Of a DNA stretch of 64,000 bases, positions 49,876-64,000 are shown piece by piece. A program made the position numbers and the translations under genes. The notes under the pieces were generated by a model. That model did no database searches, was not told the origin of the DNA, and saw only the letters and a program-made list of their open reading frames with translations. This DNA comes from Muribaculum intestinale. Its GTDB lineage: Bacteria; Bacteroidota; Bacteroidia; Bacteroidales; Muribaculaceae. The DNA lies in contig NZ_CP021421.1 of assembly GCF_002201515.1 (NCBI RefSeq), positions 2,604,001-2,668,000 of the forward strand, read 5' to 3'. How positions within the stretch are numbered: position 1 is the first letter of the stretch; each line of letters begins with the position of its first letter.

Positions 49876-49913
49876 TTTCGTTGTGCTGCGTTATGTTGAT
49901 TCTTAATTTAAAT

Positions 49914-49923
49914 GCAAAGTTAC
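49914..49923 (-). other. Attachment-site core of the ICE (GTANNTTTGC)
   Basis: On the minus strand this reads GTAACTTTGC, matching the GTANNTTTGC core that I recall for CTnDOT-type integration sites. It also contains the -7 box of dedA. The IntDOT-like integrase gene begins 320 bases to the right, as expected for the left end of such an element. The other junction is beyond the window. Confidence 0.55.
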
Positions 49924-50242
49924 TACAAAAAAGTGAAATGCGGAAAGATATAGTGATAGAATTGAGTTACAGGGGTTTCAGTCGTGCATCCGATTATTCG
50001 TGAAGCCATCGCAATCACCGCTGAAGCCAAATCAGGACGCCGCTACGTTACTTGTCCGTAACCATGCCTGAAAGGGCGGCAAACGGACACGGACAGCGAA
50101 ACAAGACGTTAAGGATTAGTGAGTTATTGACAACCCACGCAACAAATCCGGTTACGGAAAAAGATTGCGCCGTTCCTCCGTGTTTTGCGTACCGACAACA
50201 GGCTCTTCACAAACTAATTTTGAATCCAAAAAATTAAGGACG

Positions 50243-51409
50243 ATGAAGAGTACATTTTCAGTAATCTACTACCTCAAGCGTCAGGTAGTGAAAAAGGACG
50301 GGACAGTGCCCGTCATGGGACGCATAACGGTGGACGGCAGCCAGACGCAGTTCAGTTGCAAACTGACCGTCGATCCCAAGCTGTGGGACACCAAAGGGGG
50401 ACGTGTCACGGGCAGAAGCACGGCGGCACTCGAAACGAACCGCATGCTCGATAAGATGCGTGTGCGCATCAACAAACATTATCAGGAAATCATGGAGCGT
50501 GACAACTTCGTCACAGCGGAAAAGGTCAAGAACGCCTTTCTCGGACTGGAACACCGCTACCACACGCTGATGCAGGTGTTCCGGCAGCACAACGAGGACT
50601 ACGGGAAACAGGTGGAGGCCGGTATGAAAGCCAAAGGCACGCTCTTGAAGTACAAGACCGTTTACAAGCACCTGCAAGAGTTCCTCACCATCCGCTACCG
50701 CGTGAAGGACATCGCCCTGAAAGAGCTTACGCCCGCTTTCATTTCCGATTTTGAAATGTTCCTGCGCACTGACAAACACTGCTGCACCAACACCGTGTGG
50801 CTGTATGTCTGCCCGCTCCGGACGATGGTGTTCATCGCCATCAACAACGAGTGGCTCACGCGCGACCCGTTCAGGGAGTATGAAATCAAGAAGGAAGAAA
50901 CGACCCGCAGCTTCCTGACGAAAGAGGAAATCCGGCTGCTGATGGAGGGCAAACTGAAGAACGCCAAGCAGGAGCTATACCGTGATTTATACCTGTTCTG
51001 CGCCTTCACGGGCCTGTCGTTCGCCGACATGCGCAACCTGACGGAAGAGAATATCCGCACCTATTTCGACGAACACGAGTGGATAAACATCAACCGCCAG
51101 AAAACAGGTGTCGTTTCCAATATCCGGCTGCTTGACATAGCCAAGCGCATCATCGACAAATACCGGGGTCTGTGCGGGGACGGGAGGATATTCCCCGTGC
51201 CACACTACATGACCTGCCTGTACGGAATCCGTGCCGTCGCCAAGCGTTGCGGCATCACCAAGCATATCACGTGGCATCAGAGCCGCCACACGGCAGCCAC
51301 GACGGTGTTCCTATCCAACGGCGTGCCCATTGAAACGGTAAGTTCCATGTTGGGGCACAAGAGCATAAAGACAACGCAGGTCTTTTATACGTTAAATGCA
51401 ATTGAATAA
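50243..51409 (+). pseudogene. IntDOT-like tyrosine integrase, N-terminal part
   Basis: From ATG 50243 the frame encodes a CTnDOT-family integrase: arm-binding N-terminus (STFSVIYYLKRQVVKKDGTVP), core-binding domain and catalytic domain. The first catalytic Arg is replaced by Ser in TGLSFADMRNLT, as in IntDOT, and the His/Arg box is WHQSRHTAATTVFLSNG, then MLGHKSIKTTQ. After Gln 379 (codon ends 51379) the native frame is cut by a nested element; nine foreign residues (VFYTLNAIE) and a stop follow. The missing end is at 57523-57621. Rejoined length is 411 residues, the length I recall for IntDOT, with the nucleophile at Tyr 381. An upstream in-frame start at 50165 is less likely. Confidence 0.92.
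51371..51379 (+). repeat. Left direct repeat of the nested island
   Basis: ACAACGCAG encodes Thr-Thr-Gln of the integrase and is repeated at 57514-57522. The two copies bound the nested island. Confidence 0.85.
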
Positions 51410-51497
51410 AAATGAATTAATATAAATGATAATCAGTAAATTAACCTTTGATTGAGTTTCCTCTTTTTTGCTGATTCTGCCTCTATTTTCTCATTCA

Positions 51498-51512
51498 GTA
51501 CATCTTTTGTAC
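51498..51512. repeat. GTAC-N7-GTAC motif, left end of island
   Basis: GTAC ATCTTTT GTAC lies about 119 bases inside the left edge. A motif of the same form is 55 bases inside the right edge. They may be integrase or excisionase binding sites. Confidence 0.35.
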
Positions 51513-51566
51513 ATTTCGTTTGTTAATAGATGTTGAGGGTCGTTTTTACGTTTCAAACCTTCTAAT

Positions 51567-51574
51567 TACCTTTG
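51567..51574 (+). promoter_or_regulatory. Putative -7 box of the island integrase
   Basis: TACCTTTG matches TAnnTTTG, 22 bases before the integrase ATG at 51597. Confidence 0.45.
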
Positions 51575-51630
51575 CGCTCCACAAAGATAATCATTTATGG
51601 CTAAAATAGAAAGCAAGAACAAACAAAATC

Positions 51631-52859
51631 CAGGGCTGGCGCATGAGATTTAACTCAAATTCAGTCAAAAATTCACCTGATTATGTGAAATAAACTTTCA
51701 GATATTGCATATATTGCTGAAAATGGATATATTAGAGGTATGCAAATAGAAATTTTCAGCAAAGTAAAAGACCCGCGTGACTTGGGCAAGGTTAAACATG
51801 AGCTCGAGGATGTGCTCCGAATGGCACTCATCGGCGTGTTGTGTGATTGTGAGGACTGTGACGACATATCGGATATGGTTACAGACCGAGAGGAAGAATT
51901 CAAGGCCGCCGGATTGCTGAAGCTTAGCAACGGCGTCCCGTGTGGTGACACGATACTTCGTGTTGTAGAGTCTGTCAATCCCGCTCAGCTCCGGGCAAGT
52001 CTTGATTGCTGCCGAGGCCACATAATCGAATCCCTGTGCGGCAATCAGGTCATCATTGACGGTAAGAAACTGCGGGGTGAAAATCCCAGGAGTCCCGGAT
52101 GCCACGGACTGTATATCCTCAATGCGTGGGTATCTGAAACAGAAATCTGCGTTGCCGAAAAGCCGGTGGATGGCAAGACCAACGAACTTACGGTTCTGCC
52201 GTCCGTATTGTCCTCTTTATGGCTTACAGGGGCATTGGTTTCAGTCGACGCAATGGGGACCCACCGTAATATCGCAGAACAGATCATGCTCCAGGGCGGC
52301 GACTATCTGATGGCGCTTAAAGACAATCAGCCGATACTCAAGAGCTTGACGGAAAGTATCTTTAGTAGGACTACTCCATTATCGGTATACACAACCGAGG
52401 AAAAGGGGCACGGAAGAGTTGAGAAGAGAACCTGTTCAATTATGGATACGACACTTTTGGAACAGGAGGGAATGTACGAGAAGTGGCCCGGTCTTAAACG
52501 TATCATAAAGATGGAGCGTGAGCGTACTGAGAACGGTGCCCGCTCGCGTGAAACAATCTACTATCTCAGCAGCGTGGAGAAAGATGAGGCTTCTTACTAT
52601 GCGATGCGTATTCGTGCGCACTGGGGTATCGAGAACAAACTGCACTGGCATCTCGACGTGACGTTTCGGGAAGATATGTGCCGCGTACGCGCCAAGAATG
52701 GCGCTGTCAATTTTTCAGCGATGCGCAAGTATGCATTGGAAATGCTTAAAAAGCAGAACGATAAACTCAGCCTTAAACGAAGACGCAAAAAATGTATGTG
52801 GAGCACTGAATATCTGTACAAAGTCTTTAAGGATAGTTAAATCTCATGCGCCAGCCCTG
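51631..52859. mobile_element. ISAs1-family insertion sequence
   Basis: The element is 1229 bp. Inverted ends are CAGGGCTGGCGCATGAGATT and its complement, with perfect agreement over the outer 23 bases or so. The 9 bp target AACAAAATC is duplicated at 51622-51630 and 52860-52868. One transposase gene lies on the plus strand. It interrupts the island integrase 11 codons into the gene. Confidence 0.93.
51740..52840 (+). CDS. ISAs1-family transposase
   Basis: The 366-residue protein has an N-terminal DDE_Tnp_1-associated region (FSKVKDPRDLGKVKHELEDVLRMAL) and the ISAs1 core. VIIDGKKLRGEN holds the first Asp, LVSVDAMGTHRNIAEQI the second, GGDYLMALKDNQP follows, and IRAHWGIENKLHWHLDV holds the Glu, with FREDMCRVRAKNG after it. 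Length is full and the frame is intact, so it may be active. It is the H-repeat-associated type of protein. Its stop lies 19 bases before the right end of the element. Confidence 0.93.
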   Translation: MQIEIFSKVKDPRDLGKVKHELEDVLRMALIGVLCDCEDCDDISDMVTDREEEFKAAGLLKLSNGVPCGDTILRVVESVNPAQLRASLDCCRGHIIESLCGNQVIIDGKKLRGENPRSPGCHGLYILNAWVSETEICVAEKPVDGKTNELTVLPSVLSSLWLTGALVSVDAMGTHRNIAEQIMLQGGDYLMALKDNQPILKSLTESIFSRTTPLSVYTTEEKGHGRVEKRTCSIMDTTLLEQEGMYEKWPGLKRIIKMERERTENGARSRETIYYLSSVEKDEASYYAMRIRAHWGIENKLHWHLDVTFREDMCRVRAKNGAVNFSAMRKYALEMLKKQNDKLSLKRRRKKCMWSTEYLYKVFKDS

Positions 52860-54099
52860 AACAAAATCCCAAACTACAACAGTCCGAACTCAAAGACGGT
52901 CGTGCGAGCCTCTATCTGGAATTCTACCTCGGTCGCTCCGAAACTCCCGTGCTTGACGATGAGGGAAACCAAGTGTTCTACACTTCGGGGGCTATGACAG
53001 GTAAGCCGAAATACCAAGTGAAGCATATCCGCAAGCGTGAGAACCTCAATCTCTACATTTGGCTGCACCCTCGCAACACGCAGGAGCGGTTGCAGAACAA
53101 GAACACACTCGCCCTCGCCGAGAAGATACGATTTGAGCGTGAGCAGGAGTTTTTGGAGGACAGGGAGGGCTATCGGCTCAAAAAGGAGCGTCAGCGTGAT
53201 TTCCTGCAATATTACCGTGACTTCTTCAACGAGAACCCCAACCTCTCACGGATGATGAAATGCTCAATCCGACAGTCATACACCAAGTTCATCAACTTTC
53301 TACATGAATCGCCGAGGTACAGCCTTTACGACACCGTTCTCCGAATGGAGCAGCTTACTCCCGATATGGTTACGGCTTTTACCGACTATCTCAAAAAGCA
53401 CGGCACGGGCGAGGGTCCCAAAGGGATGTACGGTCGTTTCAAAAAGGTTGTCACAGCCGCATTTGACGAGGGATTGATAAAGAAACATCCCTGCAAGGGG
53501 ATAACCATCAAATGGGATAGGAACTCTTTCTCAAAGGAGATTTTAAGCCCCGATGAGATAAAAAGGCTCATGGCTACCCGGTACAAGGGGGAGAACACCG
53601 AAATGCAACGTGCGTTCATCTTCTGCCTTTTCACCGGCATACGCTGGTGTGACGTGAAGTTGCTGACCTATGCCAATGTTGACCCGATGACAAAGACACT
53701 CCGATTCCAGCAAAAGAAAGTCCGCAACATAAGCAGCCGCAGCTGGGTGACAACACCGCTCACCGATGATATGCTCGCTCTGGTGGGTGAGCCTACGACC
53801 AATGACCACTCGACTGAACCGATATTCAAAATCGGCCCTTATGTGAGCTGTAACCAGCAATTGAAGAAATGGGTTGCCGAGGCAGGGATACGGAAAAAAA
53901 TCTCATGGCATTGTAGCCGACACTCGTTTGCGGTAAATCTCCTTTCCAACGGTGCTAACATCAAGACTGTCGCCGACCTCATGGGGCATTCAAGCATAAC
54001 GATGACGGAGAAATATCTCCACGTTGTTGACAGCTTTAAGCAGGATGCAATCCACTCCCTCGGCTCAATCAGCTATGGGATGTCGTAGTTTTTACACCG

Positions 54100-54125
54100 T
54101 GGCATTTTTGGCACTTTGGCATTTT
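54100..54125. repeat. 26 bp inverted repeat, left arm
   Basis: The arm contains TGGCATTTTTGGCACTTTGG and continues CATTTT. It is perfectly complementary to 54394-54419, with 268 bases between the arms. Confidence 0.85.
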
Positions 54126-54393
54126 GGGAACTCTCCGACCTTGGAGGGTTCTTCCTTTTTTCGGCGGTCATCATCTATGAGTTTTGGTTTGGTTCAGTAC
54201 GGGGGTGTATATATAGAACTGAACCAAGACCGTATGGGGCAACGAAAAGAAAAAACAATGCAATCAGCCTGCATTTTCAGCATTATCCGCATTTCTTAAA
54301 TTGAAAATGCAGGAAATGCAGAAAGTGTGGCGAAGTCCGACAACAAATCTCAGTAATTACCACCTTGCACACCTTGCACTTTTGCACACTTTG

Positions 54394-54419
54394 AAAATGC
54401 CAAAGTGCCAAAAATGCCA
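54394..54419. repeat. 26 bp inverted repeat, right arm
   Basis: Reverse complement of 54100-54125 without mismatch. Confidence 0.85.
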
Positions 54420-54885
54420 AGGTTTAATCTTGAACTGACATATATACCGCAACGCCTTATTCCTTGATGAAGTTGACCGTGCCATTGTACAAAAGTGCAA
54501 AGAATGCAAGTGGATGACAACGAGAGAAAAATAAGATACGGCAACGAAAAAAATTGAATATTCGGAGTCGGCAAGATACCTTCCGGGTATCCCGAAAGGC
54601 AGTATCAACTCCCGACGGTCGATTGATGCCATTATAGTGACTGCGATCATTACAATGAGGAAAGGCAACGAGAAAAAAAGGAGTGTAAGGATATGTTTCG
54701 GGATTCCTTTTTCTCCGAAAAGCCACTGCCGAAACCGCAGTCACTGCCGTGACCGCTCTTTGTTTTTCTCATTGCCATAAGAGGTCGTTTTAGGGTGGAG
54801 CGAGTTTATGTTTAGGTATTACCAGTAATCCCCAAACGCTCCACAACATCATCTCCCAATAACGCCCCCTGACACCAATGACGAA

Positions 54886-55025
54886 ATGACTGAATGACAA
54901 AGTGACCAATCATCCAGATGATTAAATGATTCGATGAATTGATGACTGAATGATTAATCATTTAGATGACAAAATGACTGAATGACTAACCAACTAATCA
55001 TTCAGTCATTTAATCATTCAGTCAT
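54886..55025. repeat. Iteron tract, 12 bp units
   Basis: ATGACTGAATGA occurs exactly at 54886-54897, 54942-54953 and 54974-54985, and its reverse complement TCATTCAGTCAT at 54998-55009 and 55014-55025. Imperfect units (ATGATTAAATGATT and similar) fill the gaps. Repeats of this form often bind replication, partition or transfer proteins. Confidence 0.75.
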
Positions 55026-55192
55026 TCCGTAAATCAATATCAAAGCCAATGCGAAATACAACCACAACACCGTCATGGAAATTACACCGACTGGAAATTC
55101 CTTAGCATATTAGGGAATTTTCCGAGCCGCATTGCGGAGCAACGCTGAAAATATCCCCAATATGCCAAAGGTCAACCTTTGGAAACCGAAGC

Positions 55193-55885
55193 CTATCTAA
55201 AATAATTACGCACATTTTGAATGTGCCGATTCACTATCTCCCAATTTTCTCCATTGGAGGCGGCCTCTCTTAACGTATTAATGACACCCCATTTGTCTTT
55301 GTAATTGGCTGGCGGATTATTTTCCATAATTTCATCTATGATTGATGTGACACTTCCTGCATACCCTACATAAGTTCCATAAGGGATATCGCTGATATTT
55401 CTCAAAGTACATCTCCCATAAAATATGACTACTGAATAAAACGGCACCTCAGCAATACCTTCCAATTTCTTTTTAAGAGCCTCAATATGCCCTTTGTTTT
55501 GAAGAATCGGATTGTAAAATCTATGTTTCTCTTTTCCATACGCCAATACTTGTGTCCAATAATTCTGATACCCTTTGCCAAAAATCCAACCGCTATAATC
55601 TTTAACCTCGAACACAATTATTCCGACCTTTGTCACTACAACCGCATCAATTTGCGAATATTGTCCACGATGTCGTTCCACATACAAATCGTGATATACT
55701 GTTATCGCGGGGATATCGTGTTTAAGCAGTTTGAGAACTAATTTGCGCTCTGACCATGTACCCCGATGTGTTTCAGTCACGGTACGCAATAAAGCCATAC
55801 TCTTACGCCATTTATAGATGGCAAAGAATATGGCAATTATTAGTGCTAATACCGATATGAAACCGAACATTACAGTCATAGGCAT
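55193..55885 (-). CDS. Membrane-anchored NERD (nuclease-related) domain protein
   Basis: The 230-residue protein has one N-terminal membrane helix (VMFGFISVLALIIAIFFAIY) and a NERD domain: WSERKLVLKLL, then YSQIDAVVVTKVGIIVFEVKDYSGWIFG, where ID, E and K form a PD-(D/E)XK-like site, and WTQVLAYGKEKHRFYNPILQN. NERD proteins are predicted nucleases; a role in DNA processing or defence is possible but unproven. It is the last of three adjacent minus-strand cargo genes, six bases after the secreted protein gene. Confidence 0.82.
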   Translation of the reverse strand: MPMTVMFGFISVLALIIAIFFAIYKWRKSMALLRTVTETHRGTWSERKLVLKLLKHDIPAITVYHDLYVERHRGQYSQIDAVVVTKVGIIVFEVKDYSGWIFGKGYQNYWTQVLAYGKEKHRFYNPILQNKGHIEALKKKLEGIAEVPFYSVVIFYGRCTLRNISDIPYGTYVGYAGSVTSIIDEIMENNPPANYKDKWGVINTLREAASNGENWEIVNRHIQNVRNYFR

Positions 55886-55891
55886 AATGGA

Positions 55892-56476
55892 TTATAGGTC
55901 ATCCATAGCTTTTGCTTTGACAGCATCCGTATTTATCTTGTCCCAATATTGAAGTTTGACAAAGCATGAACTTACACTTTGGTGTTCCAATGAAAGTTGA
56001 ATATCGCCTTTGGGCGTTTCAAATACTGTCGCATAAGTACATCTATCCATTTTTAAGCGATGTAGTTTATCGCTATTATCATTTGGTGATCCATAACCCT
56101 GAAATTCTTCAACACATTCAGAGGGCTTGCCGTATTTCTCCGTCAGCATCTTTTTTAAGTGCTGATAGTTTTCCTCCAAAGATGACCAATCATCTTTTTC
56201 AGGGAAAATAACCCCAATGGTATTAACAATGTCCGAATTTTTAAGTGTCGAAACACCAATAATACACCCTTTGAATCCTGCGAAATCACCTTGCAGGATA
56301 GCCGTACCATCTTGTGTCCCAATATATGAGAATCCTGCGGATTTCATTTTGGAAACATACTCACTTAGAGAGCCGTCAATGGGAACACCTTTGAATGTGA
56401 GATGTTGGTTAGTAGATTGTGCAATAGATGCAATGCAACAAAGCATCAAGGCAATAAGAAATATGATTCTGTTCAT
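55892..56476 (-). CDS. Secreted protein, unknown function
   Basis: The 194-residue protein has a signal peptide (MNRIIFLIALMLCCIASIAQ). The mature part opens HLTFKGVPIDGSLSEYVSKMKSAGFSYIG and has a central IGVIFPEKDDWSSLEENYQHLKKML followed by a Cys-containing segment. I recognise it only as a type of hypothetical protein common in Bacteroidales. It lies between the lipoprotein gene (18 bases upstream) and the NERD gene (six bases downstream), likely in one transcript. Confidence 0.7.
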   Translation of the reverse strand: MNRIIFLIALMLCCIASIAQSTNQHLTFKGVPIDGSLSEYVSKMKSAGFSYIGTQDGTAILQGDFAGFKGCIIGVSTLKNSDIVNTIGVIFPEKDDWSSLEENYQHLKKMLTEKYGKPSECVEEFQGYGSPNDNSDKLHRLKMDRCTYATVFETPKGDIQLSLEHQSVSSCFVKLQYWDKINTDAVKAKAMDDL

Positions 56477-56494
56477 CGGATTGAAAAATTATGA

Positions 56495-56902
56495 TTAGAA
56501 AGTAGATTGCTTAATCGGTATGATAGCCTGATTTTCAGGTTCAGTTGACCACTGAACTTGCCATGTCGCACCTTCTACTTTGTCAAGGAGTACGAAATTG
56601 AACATATTTTGTGTTGGATAGAGTTCATACCTGCCATTTGTTGAATCAGTTGCTAATGCGGTAGTATTCAGTGGTATTTCAAAGCGATAATCATCTCCTT
56701 TTACGCTAAATTGAACTTGCCACATTTTGCCATTGCGAGTATCCAACTTGATAAAAGTCCACATATTATCAGTTGGATAAAGTTTGAATGGGAAGAACAT
56801 CGTTTGTTCATCCTTTGGCTGCTCCTTTTCAGTAGATGTGGCATTTTCACAGTTGGTAAACCCGACCGAAAGCAGGATTAACAACATCAAAGACAGTTGC
56901 TT
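56495..56902 (-). CDS. Lipoprotein with internal duplication, unknown function
   Basis: From ATG 56900-56902 the protein has 135 residues with a lipoprotein signal (MKQLSLMLLILLSVGFTNC, lipobox GFTNC). The mature part has two related units: FKLYPTDNMWTFIKLDTRNG with KMWQVQFSV, and YELYPTQNMFNFVLLDKVEG with ATWQVQWST. Both have a Tyr-Pro-Thr-x-Asn-Met core and a Trp-Gln-Val-Gln strand, suggesting a duplicated small beta fold. An upstream ATG adds 11 residues before the lipoprotein signal and is unlikely. It is first of the three cargo genes. Confidence 0.72.
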   Translation of the reverse strand, partial: KQLSLMLLILLSVGFTNCENATSTEKEQPKDEQTMFFPFKLYPTDNMWTFIKLDTRNGKMWQVQFSVKGDDYRFEIPLNTTALATDSTNGRYELYPTQNMFNFVLLDKVEGATWQVQWSTEPENQAIIPIKQSTF

Positions 56903-56935
56903 CATAAGCATTATTAAGCTCTCCAAGTTCCACAA

Positions 56936-57213
56936 GAGCGATTAAATGAAACACGAAGCGTGGAACTGCAATGCCACGTTCTAAGTCGGAGGTCGTAGGA
57001 AGAACCTTTTTAAGAGAAATGGTAATAGCAGCCCACGCCGTTAGCGTGAGAACCACTATGCACACTCTCTTAAAAGTCTTGAATTTCCTACGTTCCCGAC
57101 TTCGAGATGAGCATAACGCTTCTTTTTTTCAAAATGTCGTGATGGGACTTCTCCCAATCAAACGCAAAGTTACGACTTTTTGCGTTGCAAGTCAATAGGC
57201 TGGGCAAAAAATA
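56936..57213. other. Structured non-coding region at island right end
   Basis: No gene is seen. A hairpin CGTGG / CCACG (56959-56977) is followed by a long imperfect palindrome: arms 56983-57016 (AAGTCGG ... TTAAGAGA) and 57065-57102 (TCTCTTAA ... CCGACTT) with an inner hairpin CACGC / GCGTG (57034-57048). It lies upstream of the lipoprotein gene and could be a leader structure or a small hairpin-type repeat element. Confidence 0.5.
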
Positions 57214-57214
57214 A

Positions 57215-57257
57215 GTTTGGTTTAGTTCTATATATAAATATATAAACCGAACCAAAC
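57215..57257. repeat. AT-rich imperfect inverted repeat
   Basis: GTTTGGTTTAGTT (57215-57227) pairs with AACCGAACCAAAC (57245-57257) with two mismatches around an AT-rich loop. A similar TTGGTTCAGT hairpin occurs at 54189-54227. Confidence 0.5.
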
Positions 57258-57444
57258 CTACATAGATATGCGTGACAAAAGAGAAATGTCCCCTTCAATT
57301 TTTCTTTTCACCAGCCCATATATCTATCTCTATACCGACCGCAGAAAGAAGAAAACCGAGGCAAAAGAATAGAACTAAAAATAACTAACGCCTGCAAATT
57401 AAACTTAATTGATTGCTTTTGAATGTACTTAAATTCCCCATTTC

Positions 57445-57459
57445 GTACATTATTAGTAC
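57445..57459. repeat. GTAC-N7-GTAC motif, right end of island
   Basis: GTAC ATTATTA GTAC lies 54 bases before the right direct repeat and mirrors the motif at 51498-51512. Confidence 0.35.
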
Positions 57460-57513
57460 AAGTTGTTTTGCGTAATATCCTATATCTCAATTAATTATGC
57501 TTAAAACAAATAA

Positions 57514-57522
57514 ACAACGCAG
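57514..57522 (+). repeat. Right direct repeat of the nested island
   Basis: ACAACGCAG, identical to 51371-51379 and in the same integrase reading frame. Confidence 0.85.
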
Positions 57523-57621
57523 ATATACGCGAAAATAACCAAAGAGAAGCTCAACCAAGACATGGAGAACCTTGCCGCGAGATTGAACACGATTGAGGAA
57601 TTTGCAGGTTGCACCATCTAA
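57523..57621 (+). pseudogene. IntDOT-like integrase, C-terminal fragment with catalytic Tyr
   Basis: This fragment encodes the last 32 residues of the ICE integrase, IYAKITKEKLNQDMENLA onward to GCTI and TAA (57619-57621). In-frame with the repeat ACA-ACG-CAG, it gives TTQIYAKIT, where Y is the nucleophile of tyrosine recombinases. It is separated from the rest of its gene (50243-51379) by the nested island and has no start of its own. Confidence 0.92.
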
Positions 57622-57633
57622 AAAAGAAAAGCC

Positions 57634-57996
57634 ATGAAACGTGACATAATCATCATAGAGGACAAGGCGGTCTGCGTAACCGGTAACGAGGTATGGATGA
57701 CCGCCGGAGAAATCGCCGGGCTGTTCCACACGGGCGTCCCGGCAGTGAACGCCGCCATCAGGGCCGTTCTAAAGACGGACGTGCTGAACGACTACGAGGT
57801 GTGCCGCTACATACAACTTGAAAACGGGCTGTACGCGGATGTTTACTCGCTTGAAATCATCATTCCCGTCGCCTTCCGGCTGAACACTTACTGCACACAC
57901 GTGTTCCGCACGTGGCTGGTGGGCAAGGCACTCTCGAAGGAGAAGCGGCAGGCATACGTGATGTTCATACAGAACGGAAAAGCCGGATACTGCTGA
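57634..57996 (+). CDS. RhuM-like N-terminal domain protein of the ICE
   Basis: The 120-residue protein begins MKRDIIIIEDKAVCVTGNEVW. MTAGEIAGLFHTGVPAVNAAIRAVLK resembles the helix-turn-helix-like start of RhuM virulence-type proteins, followed by LNDYEVCRYIQLENGLYADVYSLEIIIPVAFRLN and FRTWLVGKAL, which match the RhuM order. It is short and lacks the longer C-terminus. Function is unknown; a DNA-binding or regulatory role is possible. It lies directly after the integrase on the same strand. Confidence 0.65.
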   Translation: MKRDIIIIEDKAVCVTGNEVWMTAGEIAGLFHTGVPAVNAAIRAVLKTDVLNDYEVCRYIQLENGLYADVYSLEIIIPVAFRLNTYCTHVFRTWLVGKALSKEKRQAYVMFIQNGKAGYC

Positions 57997-58077
57997 ACAC
58001 GCATACGTGCCAACAAAAAGGAAACGGACAGCCCAATTTGAGTTGTCCGTTTCCTTTTTTTCGTTTTCAGGCTTCTT

Positions 58078-58383
58078 TTATTCCAGCGGCTTGCGGTAAT
58101 TCGCTTCCAACAGTTCCCGCAGCCCCGATTCGGGGTAAAGCACCTTCCCGCCTAAAAGGATAAAGGGCAGCACCCTGTTGTTTCGGTACTCCTGCAAGGT
58201 GCGGCGGCTGACACGGAGCAGTTCCGCCACCTCCCTGTCCGTCAGGTAACGCTCCCCGTCCAGCGGCGGGCGGTAACTTTCCAGAAAGGCGGAGAGCCAT
58301 TTGGAGCCTTTGCGCATATTCTGCACCACGGTGGCAAGCGGCTCGTCCTCCATCGTAAACACTTCATTGTTCTCGTTCATCAT
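58078..58383 (-). CDS. HTH_17 excisionase-like DNA-binding protein
   Basis: The 101-residue protein has a MerR/excisionase-type helix-turn-helix (YLTDREVAELLRVSRRTLQEYRNN, then LPFILLGGKVLYPESGL wing) after a polar N-terminal part. CTnDOT-type elements carry small proteins of this kind (Xis2c/Xis2d) near the integrase that control excision and transfer genes. It is the second of two such genes on the minus strand. The symbol is left blank because subtype cannot be decided. Confidence 0.8.
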   Translation of the reverse strand: MMNENNEVFTMEDEPLATVVQNMRKGSKWLSAFLESYRPPLDGERYLTDREVAELLRVSRRTLQEYRNNRVLPFILLGGKVLYPESGLRELLEANYRKPLE

Positions 58384-58422
58384 AACTTCGGATTCAGTGG
58401 GTTGTGAATAATAAAAATCAAA

Positions 58423-58722
58423 TCATCTTGCGCCGGGATAGAGCGTGCCGATAAGCGGAATGAGCCTTTTAACCTCCTCCGGCTTGTAATAGAACCTGCG
58501 GTTAATCTGCGAGTAGCCGATAAGCCGCCTGTCGCGCAACGTCTGCAACGTGCGCGGGCTGATCCTCAACTGCCCGCAGACCTCCTCGCCCGTGAGCCAC
58601 CTTTCCAGCCGCCCTCCGTCGCTCCTGCGTCTCAAGGCGGCAACCTTCTCCGAGAGGGCGTTGAAGGACGCCACCATCATCTCGAAGGTCTTTTTCTCGA
58701 TAGATACTATTTCCATAAGCAA
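58423..58722 (-). CDS. HTH_17 excisionase-like DNA-binding protein
   Basis: The 99-residue protein has an N-terminal helical part (SIEKKTFEMMVASFNALSEK) and a helix-turn-helix with wing: WLTGEEVCGQLRISPRTLQT, LRDRRLIGYSQINRRFYYKPEEV. It resembles the first excision-operon protein of CTnDOT-type elements. It lies 39 bases upstream of the related gene at 58078-58383; both face the integrase. Confidence 0.8.
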   Translation of the reverse strand: MLMEIVSIEKKTFEMMVASFNALSEKVAALRRRSDGGRLERWLTGEEVCGQLRISPRTLQTLRDRRLIGYSQINRRFYYKPEEVKRLIPLIGTLYPGAR

Positions 58723-59042
58723 AACATTTCAGAGTTTGCCGCAAAGGTAACGCCAGCCCCGTGAACACATATCGTTTCCCGCTAAAAGGCAGCTTGTTGC
58801 GCCGCCTGTCCGGGTTACGGAGCCATTTCCCATAAAAATCTTACGTGAGACACGTAGTGAGCTGTTAAAGCCCCTTTGGTTTATTGCCGAATTTTGCCAC
58901 AGAAACCAAAAGAAAGAACTGAATATGAAAGTAATAACGATGGAAAGTTCCGCCTTCACCGCATTGACTGTATCTAACATTTGAAAAGGGACCCGGATAG
59001 CATTTGAAAAGGGGACCACCCGGGATGGGGATGCAAAGATAA

Positions 59043-59831
59043 TTATATTTGTTGAGTCATCATTTCCTGAGTTTCTTTCATGCGGTATGATTTGCCTGTC
59101 ATGTTAAGCAGTATAGCCTTGTGGGTCAGGCGGTCTACCATTGCGGTGACCAGTACTTTGTCGTCAATAATCTCGTTCCAGCGGTTGAAGGCGAGATTGG
59201 TTGTGACGACGGTCGTCTTCTTGTCGGTGCGGAGGGAGAGATGGTTAAAGAGCATCTCTGCGCCGGCCTTGTCGCAGGAGACGTATCCGAACTCATCACA
59301 GATGACCATGTCGTATCTCTCGAACTTGTTTTCCAGCGACCGGAGTGTCAAAGCGTTGCGGCACTCGCGTATCTGCGTGAGCAGTCTTGGCACGGATGTG
59401 AACAGCACCGAGTGTCCGGCATTACATGCGGCGATACCGAGAGCTGTCGCCAGATGAGTCTTGCCTGTTCCGGGATTGCCGTATAGAATGAGGTTGCGTC
59501 CGTTTTTGATGAAGTCGAGTGTCTCGAGTGTCGGGAGCGCTTTCCGGGCATCGGCGGGCAGAGCGTCGGTGTCGATTTCGTTAAGATAGCGAAGTTGCGG
59601 GAACCCTGCGTTTTTGATGCGGTGACGGCGCTGGTTTTCAGAGCGGTTCTCTTTTTCGCGCCGGAGCAGTTCGGCTGTAAACCGCCATAGGTTCCATTGT
59701 TCGTCGGCGCTCTGCTGTATAAGCAGGTCGATGTCGCGCCGCACAAGCGGGAGTTTAAGGTCGAAAGCGCATGAGCGAATGAGCTCCCGAAGTCCGTCAC
59801 GGTCTGTTTCATGTATGTCTGTCATTGTCAT
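59043..59831 (-). CDS. istB: IS21-family helper ATPase IstB
   Basis: IstB is the AAA+ regulator that delivers IstA to target DNA. The 262-residue protein has Walker A LYGNPGTGKTHLATAL, VLFTSVPRLL, Walker B YDMVICDEFGYV and LSLRTDKKTTVVTTNLAFNRW. Length is normal. It follows istA after 31 bases that include C7A6 on the minus strand, a possible slippage site. Confidence 0.93.
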   Translation of the reverse strand: MTMTDIHETDRDGLRELIRSCAFDLKLPLVRRDIDLLIQQSADEQWNLWRFTAELLRREKENRSENQRRHRIKNAGFPQLRYLNEIDTDALPADARKALPTLETLDFIKNGRNLILYGNPGTGKTHLATALGIAACNAGHSVLFTSVPRLLTQIRECRNALTLRSLENKFERYDMVICDEFGYVSCDKAGAEMLFNHLSLRTDKKTTVVTTNLAFNRWNEIIDDKVLVTAMVDRLTHKAILLNMTGKSYRMKETQEMMTQQI

Positions 59832-59862
59832 TCAGTGTATTGGTTGTTTTTTGGGGGGGTAT

Positions 59863-61464
59863 TCAGTCTGCCTGCGATGCGCGGGTATATTCCATAAATG
59901 ATGAAAGCATGTCAAGGGTATGGCTTGCCGAACTTTCTATTTCAGCCTGTTGCGGGTCGGGAACGTTCGTTGCCGCGATATCGGCGGTTGACTGCATATG
60001 TCCTTCCGCCGAGATCATCTGAGCCTGTATCTGTTCAGATGAGAGGCGCTGGAGCCCGCGGGACGAAAGACTTGTGGCGGCACGGACGATGTCAGTGTAT
60101 GCCAGATTGTTGTCGCGGGTGAACACAAGCAGTTCTATGAAGCTTCGCGGAGACTCGCGGAAGTGTTCGCGGTAAAGCGCCGCCACCGACGGATGTACCT
60201 GTTGCAGAGCCACAGACCGCCCCAGAGCGGCCGGTTTGCGCAGGAATGTACCCAGATAATGCATCAGGTCGATGACCCAGTCGCCGGAGCGTCGGCTTCG
60301 GGCATGATTGGCCACCTTGTCGCGTCCGTAAAGCACCACGATGCGCTCGGAATACAGCTTTACCGCCACCTGCGAGCCCACCAGACGGTCGGGCACAGAG
60401 TAGTGCACTCCGTCAACGGTTATCGTTGAATACTTTCCGACGCGGTACAGCCGCTGCTCGAAGCAGCCGATGTCACCGTGGTCCAACGGACGTAGCGCCG
60501 CCAGATCGGCCTGTATGCGCAGGCGTTTTTCTTCCGCCGACATGTTGGACGCCTCTGTGTTGAGCCTGTCGCAGACTGCCGCCAGATGCGTCTGCGCGGC
60601 ATCCAGGGAGTCAAACCGGACCTCGAACGAGAATGCACGACGCCGGATATATTCCACCGAACGTTCCACCTTGCCTTTTTCCCATCCCGAGCGAGGGTTG
60701 CAGAAATGGGGTGTGAAACAGTAGTGTACCTCCATGCGCAGCAGCGCATCCGTGTGCTCGCGGTCGCGCCCGAGGAACTTCTTTACGGCGGTACGCATGT
60801 TGTCATAGGCCATCACGCGCGGGGTGCCCCCCAACTCCCGGAAGCAGTTGCGGTGGGCTTCCATAAGAGCCAGGGTATCTTCGCGCGAAAACAGATATGC
60901 CTTGCGCATATTGCTGTGGTCGAGGGTGAATACCGCCATGTGAAGGCGAGTCCTGACTCCACCGATCCACAGGGTAAGCACGCCCCAGTCGAACTCGCAA
61001 CGGAATCCAGGCTCATAGTCCTGACGGATATATGCCTTTGCAGGCTTTTCTTGCGACTTCGGCGCTGCCTCCAGCGCACGGACATACTGACATACTGTGG
61101 AATAGGCGATACGCACGCCATCGTCCTGAAGACGTCGCCACATATCGAGCTTGCGCATCTGCTGCTTGTGCAATCCGGCAGCGACGTTCTCCCGGTTGCG
61201 GGCGATAAAACCATCGATGCGACGGCGGACATCATCGGTCACAACACGCCTGACGCGTCCGCTGCTGTCATACTTCGGCCTGGTCAGCAGATAATCGTCA
61301 ACCTCCCGCTCTGTCGGTGACGGGCCGGCCTCTCTCTCGAACTCGCGCAGATACTTGCGCACGGTCTTGCGGCTCATGCCGTTGCGGCGCGCTATCTCGC
61401 GGATGCTCATCCCCTCGCGGCGATGAGACAGAATAATGGATGTTTTTTCCTCCATGTGTAGCAT
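59863..61464 (-). CDS. istA: IS21-family transposase IstA
   Basis: The 533-residue protein has an N-terminal helix-turn-helix (MSIREIARRNGMSRKTVRKYL) and a DDE/rve integrase core: CEFDWGVLTLWIGG with the first Asp, RVMAYDNMRTAV with the second, and NPRSGWEKGKVERSVEYIRR with the Glu. A C-terminal beta domain (YSVPDRLVGSQVAVKLY) follows. It is complete and in the usual istA-istB order. Confidence 0.93.
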   Translation of the reverse strand: MLHMEEKTSIILSHRREGMSIREIARRNGMSRKTVRKYLREFEREAGPSPTEREVDDYLLTRPKYDSSGRVRRVVTDDVRRRIDGFIARNRENVAAGLHKQQMRKLDMWRRLQDDGVRIAYSTVCQYVRALEAAPKSQEKPAKAYIRQDYEPGFRCEFDWGVLTLWIGGVRTRLHMAVFTLDHSNMRKAYLFSREDTLALMEAHRNCFRELGGTPRVMAYDNMRTAVKKFLGRDREHTDALLRMEVHYCFTPHFCNPRSGWEKGKVERSVEYIRRRAFSFEVRFDSLDAAQTHLAAVCDRLNTEASNMSAEEKRLRIQADLAALRPLDHGDIGCFEQRLYRVGKYSTITVDGVHYSVPDRLVGSQVAVKLYSERIVVLYGRDKVANHARSRRSGDWVIDLMHYLGTFLRKPAALGRSVALQQVHPSVAALYREHFRESPRSFIELLVFTRDNNLAYTDIVRAATSLSSRGLQRLSSEQIQAQMISAEGHMQSTADIAATNVPDPQQAEIESSASHTLDMLSSFMEYTRASQAD

Positions 61465-61579
61465 TTTGTGGAATCGTTGATGTCGTTCTTTCTAATCAAC
61501 GATATCCGGTTGAACTTACCCATGGGGTGGGTTCCTTTTCAATTGCTCTACCTGGGTCCCTTTTCAAATGTTAGATGCA

Positions 61580-62485: not shown

Positions 62486-63511
62486 TTAATACTTAGTCCG
62501 TAAATCCTTTAGATAACCCAACAAGGATTTGTCTTTTTGCCATGTCGTTTTACCCTCTTTTATTATTCCCGGATTTACACGTGACAATGCCTCCAGCTTC
62601 TTCTTTTCACTTGCACGAGCATATATTTCTGTTGTAGTTGTTGAAACATGCCCTAAAAAATCCCTTATATAAACCAAATTTATATCCGCCTCCAATAAGT
62701 GCATGGCTTTGGAATGCCGGAAAGAATGGCATCCCAAATTTTCAGGGATTAAATCAGGGGACTTTTTTCGAGCTATCTCTGCATATTTCTTTACAATATT
62801 CAGGACGGCAACACGGGAAAGTTTCTCTCCGTGGAAATTACAAAAAATAGGAACACAATGCCTGTCCTCTTTCATCAATCCCTCATCATACATATATTTT
62901 TTGAGATTGGATGCTTGTTGTTTTGATAAAGGTACAATCCGTGCCTTATTACCCTTTCCGCATAATTTGACAGTCGCCGTATCATTAAATTCTATATTAG
63001 GTGGCGTAAGGTCAATTAGTTCCTGAACTCTTGCCCCACTGTCATAGAGTAGTGAAAGAAGAACGAAATCCCGACGACCATATCGTGTTTTCAAATCAGG
63101 TTGACTTAAAATCAACTTTATACCATCTATCGTAAGATAAGCCATTTCAGGAGCAGCAGTTTTCTTTTTCCTTATTGACATTATTTCATGATAACGGAAC
63201 ATTCCTTTTACATCTCGATATTGCAGGTAACTATAAAAAGACCGAATGGCTGCAAGACGTGCATTTCGCGTGGAAACAGAGCAATGCCTGTCTTCTTCAA
63301 GCCATTGCAAGAAATTTATAATCCGTTCTTTGGTTATATCCGCAAGGGTAACACGCTGTGGATTTATAAATTCTTGCTCTTTCAGGAACTCAATCAACAG
63401 GGAGAATGTGTAACTGTAAGTCAATATCGTATTTTGGGAAACGCCACATTCTATTGGCAGATATGTGCCAAAAAAATCGGTCAGATATTTAGAAAAATCA
63501 GTAGGTTTCAT
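62486..63511 (-). CDS. Tyrosine recombinase (third gene type of a RIT-like element)
   Basis: The 341-residue protein has a SAM-like core-binding domain (ILTYSYTFSLLIEFLKE, VSTRNARLAAIRSFYSYL) and a complete catalytic set: DSGARVQELIDLTPPNI (Arg), KGNKARIVPL (Lys), HSFRHSKAMHLLEAD (His-x-x-Arg), FLGHVSTTTTEIYAR (His and Tyr). Its ATG is two bases after the stop of another tyrosine recombinase upstream. Tandem, tightly spaced recombinases of different subfamilies are the mark of RIT (recombinase-in-trio) or Tn554-like elements. Confidence 0.85.
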   Translation of the reverse strand: MKPTDFSKYLTDFFGTYLPIECGVSQNTILTYSYTFSLLIEFLKEQEFINPQRVTLADITKERIINFLQWLEEDRHCSVSTRNARLAAIRSFYSYLQYRDVKGMFRYHEIMSIRKKKTAAPEMAYLTIDGIKLILSQPDLKTRYGRRDFVLLSLLYDSGARVQELIDLTPPNIEFNDTATVKLCGKGNKARIVPLSKQQASNLKKYMYDEGLMKEDRHCVPIFCNFHGEKLSRVAVLNIVKKYAEIARKKSPDLIPENLGCHSFRHSKAMHLLEADINLVYIRDFLGHVSTTTTEIYARASEKKKLEALSRVNPGIIKEGKTTWQKDKSLLGYLKDLRTKY

Positions 63512-63513
63512 AA

Positions 63514-64000
63514 TTATTCTTCTGTTTCAATATTAATATCAGGGAATACACAACGATAGGTATCATCAACTTTTGCAATTAATTGAGGATACATTTGCTG
63601 CGTCATCCGTACATACTGGTTTGTTGAGTATAAAGATTTATGTCCGACATAAGTCATAAGGAGTGGCAATGAGTTGTATAGGTCTTTTCCTGATTCTGAC
63701 ATTTTAACAAGAGATTCCACGCAAAAAGTATGGCGCAAGTCATGAAGTCTGGGCGTTTTGCCCTTTGCCCCTGCAAATATTCCTGCCCGTTGCAACACCG
63801 CCTTGAACAATCTGTTTATAGATGTTCCTCTGCATCGCTTTCCGTCAGCAGAAGAAAAGAAGGGCGCATCCGGTTCAACAGACATATTACAGTGTTCTTT
63901 ATAAACAACATAGTCCTTACAAATTGCAGTCAAAGACAAAGACATTGGCACGATTCGGTCTTGTCCGTTCTTACACTCATGCAGGGTTAGTGTACCCAAA
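63514..64000 (-). CDS. Tyrosine recombinase, partial at window edge
   Basis: The C-terminal 160 or so residues are present. They include the Lys region (CKNGQDRIVPMSL), RLHDLRHTFCVESLVKM (His-x-x-Arg), YVGHKSLYSTNQYVRMTQ (His and Tyr) and a tail ending INIETEE. The N-terminus is outside the window. It is directly upstream of the recombinase at 62486-63511 and belongs to the same multi-recombinase element, which runs off the window. Confidence 0.85.
   Translation of the reverse strand, partial: LGTLTLHECKNGQDRIVPMSLSLTAICKDYVVYKEHCNMSVEPDAPFFSSADGKRCRGTSINRLFKAVLQRAGIFAGAKGKTPRLHDLRHTFCVESLVKMSESGKDLYNSLPLLMTYVGHKSLYSTNQYVRMTQQMYPQLIAKVDDTYRCVFPDINIETEE

Follow-up and report, generated by a model that had tools for sequence, protein, structure and literature searches.

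A relaxase-less island with a candidate transfer origin in the integrase gene of a decayed integrative and conjugative element of Muribaculum intestinale

The 64,000-nucleotide stretch of Muribaculum intestinale DNA analyzed here (the window; contig NZ_CP021421.1, positions 2,604,001 to 2,668,000) contains the left end of an integrative and conjugative element (ICE), whose type we take to be that of CTnDOT. The tyrosine integrase gene of this ICE is interrupted by a smaller element, referred to below as the island. The features are collected in Table 1. The island separates the first 379 codons of the ICE integrase from the last 32, which carry the nucleophile tyrosine, and the 9-bp sequence ACAACGCAG stands at both junctions. 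An earlier note on this DNA had described a loss of collinearity after codon 379, resumption at codon 380 and a repeat at each junction. The two parts of the gene were confirmed at the positions given there, the second encoding IYAKITKEKLNQDMENLAARLNTIEEFAGCTI before its stop. Likewise, the left junction reads TTQVFYTLNAIE followed by a stop, with a tyrosine one residue late.

Comparison with other genomes bore out the insertion. All six ICE relatives spanning the site (L086, L087 and L089–L092, the alignments of L089 and L092 being identical) are uninterrupted there and match the window over 49914–51379 and then from 57514. The two aligned halves overlap by 9 bp, or by 11 bp in L091. Such shared bases in uninterrupted relatives mark an insertion that duplicated 9 bp, and chance is ruled out as an explanation of the junctions because the boundaries are set by other genomes. 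The contig of a seventh relative, L088, ends before the insertion site, and L090 carries a further insert at about 57998.

Four sister copies of the island, of which L062 has two and L068 and L073 have one apiece, share 73–81% DNA identity with it. The match begins at 51464 or 51484, takes in the non-coding middle and stops between 57371 and 57497; the genes between the conserved regions differ. The distance from the left end to the ATG of the integrase is 217 bp in the window and 219–246 bp in eight sisters, and the right end predicted from L068 lies at about 57515, within the 9-bp repeat. Together, the sister homology, the left-end distance and the predicted right end indicate that the island is one element inserted at its own ends. 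Its membership in a family of small integrative elements of Muribaculaceae makes it probable that the insertion was carried out by its own tyrosine recombinase.

Table 1. Features of the ICE stub and of the island within it (window coordinates).
Feature	Position	Strand	Evidence
Stub of CTnDOT-like ICE left end, interrupted by the island	49914..58968	.	Alignments of ICE relatives
ICE tyrosine integrase, codons 1–379, without the Tyr	50243..51379	+	Arm-DNA-bind_5, Phage_int_SAM_5 and Phage_integrase matches
Left copy of the 9-bp repeat, ACAACGCAG	51371..51379	+	Direct reading and relatives' alignments
Island, one repeat copy counted	51380..57522	+	Absent from six uninterrupted relatives; homologous to sister islands over 51464–57497 apart from IS and cargo
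Island integrase, N-terminal piece running into the ISAs1-family element and a stop	51597..51653	+	
ISAs1-family insertion sequence splitting the island integrase	51631..52859	+	25-bp perfect inverted repeats; 9-bp target duplication AACAAAATC
ISAs1-family transposase	51740..52840	+	NF033564, E 6e-85
Remainder of the island tyrosine integrase	52860..54088	+	Phage_integrase, E 6e-20; 62% to nearest relative
Non-coding stretch bounded by 34-nt inverted repeats	54092..54427	.	Within 52860–55187, 76–77% conserved in L062 and L068
Candidate origin of transfer (oriT), folded 117-bp block	55071..55187	+	Located upstream of MobV relaxase genes in relatives
NERD (nuclease-related) domain protein, cargo	55193..55885	-	PF08378, E 1.6e-27
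Cargo protein of unknown function	55892..56476	-	No family match
Cargo protein of unknown function, YPTxN repeats also in L073 cargo (by eye)	56495..56935	-	No family match
Conserved right-end region of the element family	56926..57497	.	78–81% to L062, L068 and L073
Right copy of the 9-bp repeat, ACAACGCAG	57514..57522	+	Direct reading and relatives' alignments
ICE integrase, codons 380–411 with the nucleophile Tyr, and stop	57523..57621	+	IYAKITKEKLNQDMENLAARLNTIEEFAGCTI and stop
ICE gene of unknown function adjoining the integrase	57634..57996	+	Same place in L086
ICE excisionase-type helix-turn-helix gene	58078..58383	-	HTH_17, E 1e-12; TIGR01764
IS21-family element ending the ICE stub, no target duplication	58969..61579	-	Alignments

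The integrase of the island is no longer intact, which corrects the earlier note: its N-terminus is split, after MAKIESKNKQNP, by an insertion sequence (IS) of the ISAs1 family. Matches to this integrase at E 1e-80 were found in 47 of 297 family genomes (best six candidates per genome), the nearest being 62% identical. An order-wide search at E 1e-150 (best four candidates per genome) returned only the genome itself and G013, a genome of the same genus (2/393), and a search of 14 genomes of the genus gave no closer relative. The lineage of the window integrase thus has one known member, with its closest relative at 62%. Four matches were obtained in plasmid records, all below 60%, and none in phage records. 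Searching genome contigs and viral contigs with the single island integrase gave no relatives.

The integrase genes of other ICEs were read at the interrupted codon. Among 51 loci, the window is interrupted, three lack the motif and 47, representing 46 distinct genes, are uninterrupted and read Q-[IL]-Y (at most the best six candidates per genome were scored in one search and the best four in the other; four matches without a locus were not read). The junction sequence AAGACAACGCAGATATACGCG is uninterrupted in L048/L057, which are one gene, and in L227. Hence none of the 46 other genes is interrupted here, and none carries a second island at this codon. The motif is missing in L046, L050 and L250, the first two lying at contig ends and the third doing so by inference. 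The earlier note had allowed partial function to the shortened ICE integrase; with its tyrosine one residue late and its tail lost this is unlikely, since the spacing of the tyrosine is invariant in the 46 genes. Two side observations concern such genes. The matches L046, L250 and G565:C8 stop at codons 351–355, possibly at a repeat-driven assembly break, and the integrase of a close ICE copy in G219 (L086:9120–10546) is open in two frames, with a break near codon 190.

The insertion sites of the island's relatives were then tabulated. The integrases of the family form clusters with 92–100% identity, and closely similar elements lie in different surroundings. The elements in L068 and L062a are 98.9% identical over 5104 bp, those in L073 and L062b 97.6% identical over 5266 bp, and those in L065 and L079 100% identical over at least 11.5 kb; the left flanks differ in each pair. 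Differing left flanks were also found for six cluster-A elements with 92–98% identical integrases. Of 25 left flanks compared, including that of the window, 24 are distinct, only L068 and L069 showing homology at the same position (left ends were placed by analogy for L069, L070a, L075, L076, L077a, L077b, L078 and L080, and the L070a flank has only 279 bases). The gene shared by L068 and L069 has SNF2/Helicase_C matches. At other loci the left flank meets a DndB-like gene, some other type of open frame or DNA without a long frame, and the flanks of L078 and L065 share 186 bp at different offsets. Near-identical sisters also show end sequences other than that of the window.

A truncated tyrosine-recombinase motif was sought upstream of the relatives. 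It was found in none of 67 loci, by the same script that detected it in the window; these were the usable ones among 76 named loci from species genomes, of which nine were too short upstream, and many of the 76 duplicate records of the loci with G handles. The motif was also absent from the 29 relatives L009–L037, a set in which the window locus L001 provides no control, as the ISAs1-family element puts the site out of range. The differing sister flanks and the 0/67 result indicate that ICE integrases are not a standing attachment site (attB) for the family. As a separate observation, the left ends of L064, L065, L070, L072 and L078 share GCAAGGTATG in otherwise different flanks, the two integrase groups concerned being only about 53% identical; this is perhaps a shared target motif.

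The 117-bp block near the middle of the island is conserved at 82–94% identity across relatives, and its predicted single-stranded DNA fold is better than 200 of 200 shuffles (z −4.0). In L064, a gene called Mob_Pre/MobV by both Pfam and NCBIfam starts 63 bp after it. The block search in family genomes (at most the best two candidates scored per genome) listed 36 places, of which 30 loci were kept. In 12 of these 30 a MobV start follows 63–204 bp downstream in the same orientation, MobV being detected by motif rather than by profile except in L064; the MobV-less loci L108, L111 and L126 have 504 bp or less of downstream sequence. The block is present in 14 of the 76 named loci, a set that partly shares its records with the 30, and in 10 of the 14 a MobV start lies 80–155 bp on. 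Of the other four, L151, L152 and L161, of the small-island class, have none, and the contig of L164 ends. All three plasmid records with a block match have a MobV match 93–101 bp downstream, annotated as mobV in two and unannotated in the third. In L212, MobV lies 9 kb from the integrase and the block is lacking. The block is thus a candidate oriT, as judged from its position and fold.

The window, both copies in L062, L068 and L073 have the block, with no MobV found by the motif search. No relaxase match was obtained among the five island proteins scanned (the integrase remainder, the transposase and three cargo proteins), and the only two Mob_Pre matches of the genome lie outside the island. 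The exact block pattern had no match in viral contigs, and five Rfam matches were all below the gathering scores.

The surrounding ICE is reduced to a stub, a second correction to the earlier note. All seven relatives compared have the start of ICE homology at 49912–49915; five reach 58968 and L087 stops at 58005, the contig of L088 ending earlier. The integrase domains and the neighboring excisionase-like genes at one end fit a putative CTnDOT-like element with an integrase of the IntDOT type. At 58968 the stub gives way to an insertion sequence whose family we take to be IS21. Its flanks (ATTGAC versus AGATGT) show no target duplication, and at least 26 full or near-full copies with 99–100% identity occur in the genome, a number that represents a recent burst. 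Only two short matches (67–68%) to the next 8 kb of the ICE, as in L086, were found in this genome; the best 40 candidates were scored in both genome searches. An IS-linked deletion would be the simplest account of the loss. The claim that the island disables excision of its host is therefore moot today, the ICE being a 2.9-kb stub with the following 8 kb nearly without match. Neither the ICE nor the island would be expected to move by means of its own enzyme. The open reading frames scanned around the stub showed no drug-resistance gene. Beyond the IS21-family element, two adjacent tyrosine-recombinase frames lie on the reverse strand at 62486–63999, the second open at the window edge, and here another mobile element adjoins the stub.

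The cargo of the window comprises three genes. PADLOC gave only weak PglW and MkoA matches, both to the NERD protein, and NCBIfam matches of this protein to MAD6 and PglW were below the cut-off; a role of the NERD protein in defence is only a guess. In relatives, a C5 methylase and an AAA_13 protein among the cargo match PADLOC models. In L067 the C5 methylase has a weak HipA_C match nearby, and in L061 the AAA_13 protein accompanies a Schlafen AlbA_2 protein; these are likely defence genes, and some sisters may therefore carry such functions.

The explanation we favor, and consider likely, is that of a relaxase-less hitch-hiker with a candidate oriT and variable cargo, inserted by chance into an ICE integrase gene, after which both elements decayed. 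The element would consist of a left-end tyrosine integrase with broad target choice, a central MobV-type transfer origin lacking its relaxase, and a conserved right end preceded by exchangeable cargo. The integrase would have placed the element by chance in the CTnDOT-like integrase gene, duplicating 9 bp and severing the tyrosine codon from the rest. To spread, the island would depend on a related element for the MobV relaxase and on an ICE or plasmid for the conjugation channel. The ISAs1-family insertion would later have broken the island integrase, and an IS21-linked deletion would have taken away the remainder of the ICE, so that only a fossil persists.

Several observations weigh against this explanation. 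L068 and L069, in two genera and with 93% identical integrases, share one target gene, so repeated targeting does occur in the family, and no clear direct repeat was seen for L068, L062a or L073. None of the relatives with compared flanks exceeds 62% identity to the window integrase, whose own lineage could be more selective. At the left end, the outermost 84 bp have no detectable similarity to the sisters. Furthermore, searches of this genome revealed the block only in the island, with none adjoining the two Mob_Pre genes. The block also adjoins genes in loci lacking integrase or MobV, which oriT function alone does not explain. Among nine such loci (L135–L143), eight show neither a match to the island integrase nor MobV, and several copies keep the right-end region of the island. 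In L140 (8288–9943) the block lies by a degenerate relative of the window's own cargo, adjoining a gene that we take to be ClpB-like. Such loci could be remnants of decayed islands; alternatively, the block could serve a second role.

The earlier note had proposed that the island integrase targeted a conserved codon block. What stands of this is that a mobile island with a tyrosine integrase inserted there with a 9-bp duplication and disrupted the tyrosine codon. The further proposal, that the lineage has its dedicated attB in the KTTQ-IYAK codon block of ICE integrases and thereby locks host ICEs, is improbable. The exact insertion at the codon, the conservation of the block and the recurrent use of one gene by L068 and L069 speak for it, and it was set aside as the leading reading on the absence of interruption in the 46 other genes, the absence of a truncated recombinase behind 67 relatives, and the unrelated flanks and other end sequences of sisters that are 97.6–100% identical. 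Less probable still is that the single-member lineage of the window alone uses the tyrosine codon block as attB, in which case intact members would lock or time many ICEs until excision. A reversible switch, in which precise excision restores the ICE integrase and the ICE moves only once the island has left, would be permitted by the 9-bp repeat and has a precedent in a helper-embedded phage-inducible chromosomal island (PICI) (PMC10111431). With a split island integrase, an ICE stub and no second case among the 46 genes, it is extremely unlikely and was rejected as the leading reading. An assembly artefact has equally little to recommend it: the 26 full or near-full IS21-family copies could mislead assembly, but the nearest lies 1.4 kb away, the whole genome is one contig of 3.31 Mb, the duplication is perfect and the insert matches sister islands. 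This, too, was discarded as the leading reading.

The alternative that deserves most weight, while still unlikely, concerns the block, which would be a 3'-end or regulatory structure in a plain integrative element with no conjugative link. Among the 18 MobV-less loci, 11 have a longest opposite-strand frame that terminates 2–12 bp from the block, and integrase-less copies retain both block and gene. Nevertheless, an opposite-strand frame also ends 2 bp away in L112, a locus with MobV, so this sign is weak, and the same-orientation position just upstream of MobV in 12/30 and 10/14 block loci and in 3/3 plasmid records argues for oriT.

Under the favored explanation, a chance hitch-hiker in a decayed ICE, the position inside the ICE integrase is eye-catching and probably accidental; it seems to have been hit by chance rather than used as a dedicated attack site. 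The locus says little in favor of a dedicated anti-ICE target. It documents a nested, doubly decayed stack of mobile elements and draws attention to a family of small elements in Bacteroidota whose members apparently depend on related elements for a MobV relaxase. Cargo islands classed as non-mobile by mobility typing may move, provided that the block is an oriT.

The island family is not described in the excerpts available of PMC5704250, PMC11389934, PMC10111431 and PMC12942858, and publication elsewhere is possible; a literature search on Muribaculaceae elements found nothing, which is not proof of absence from print. The kind itself is established: relaxase-less integrative mobilizable elements (IMEs), or mobile genomic islands, were identified in Firmicutes and Proteobacteria according to the relevant passage of PMC5704250. 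Like these, the island combines an integrase, now IS-split, with a putative oriT-like sequence, defined ends, direct repeats and cargo, and without a relaxase would presumably be transferred in trans. It differs in belonging to Bacteroidota, a phylum not named in that passage, in its MobV-type oriT candidate and in its varying targets. The low-specificity Bacteroides IMEs Tn4555 and Tn5520, compared by their description in the same source, likewise have one tyrosine integrase and a broad target choice, and unlike the island each has its own mobilization gene. Helper-embedded PICIs (PMC10111431) resemble it as small elements within a gene of another mobile element; their integrase subclades keep to their sites, and their helper is a prophage, whereas here the flanks are scattered and the host is an ICE stub. 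Tn1806-like ICEs nest in the snf2 gene of ICESa2603-family ICEs (PMC12942858). They share with the island the nesting in an ICE gene, and the sisters in L068 and L069 likewise lie in an SNF2/Helicase_C-type gene; unlike the island, they are full ICEs of Streptococcus at a repeated site.

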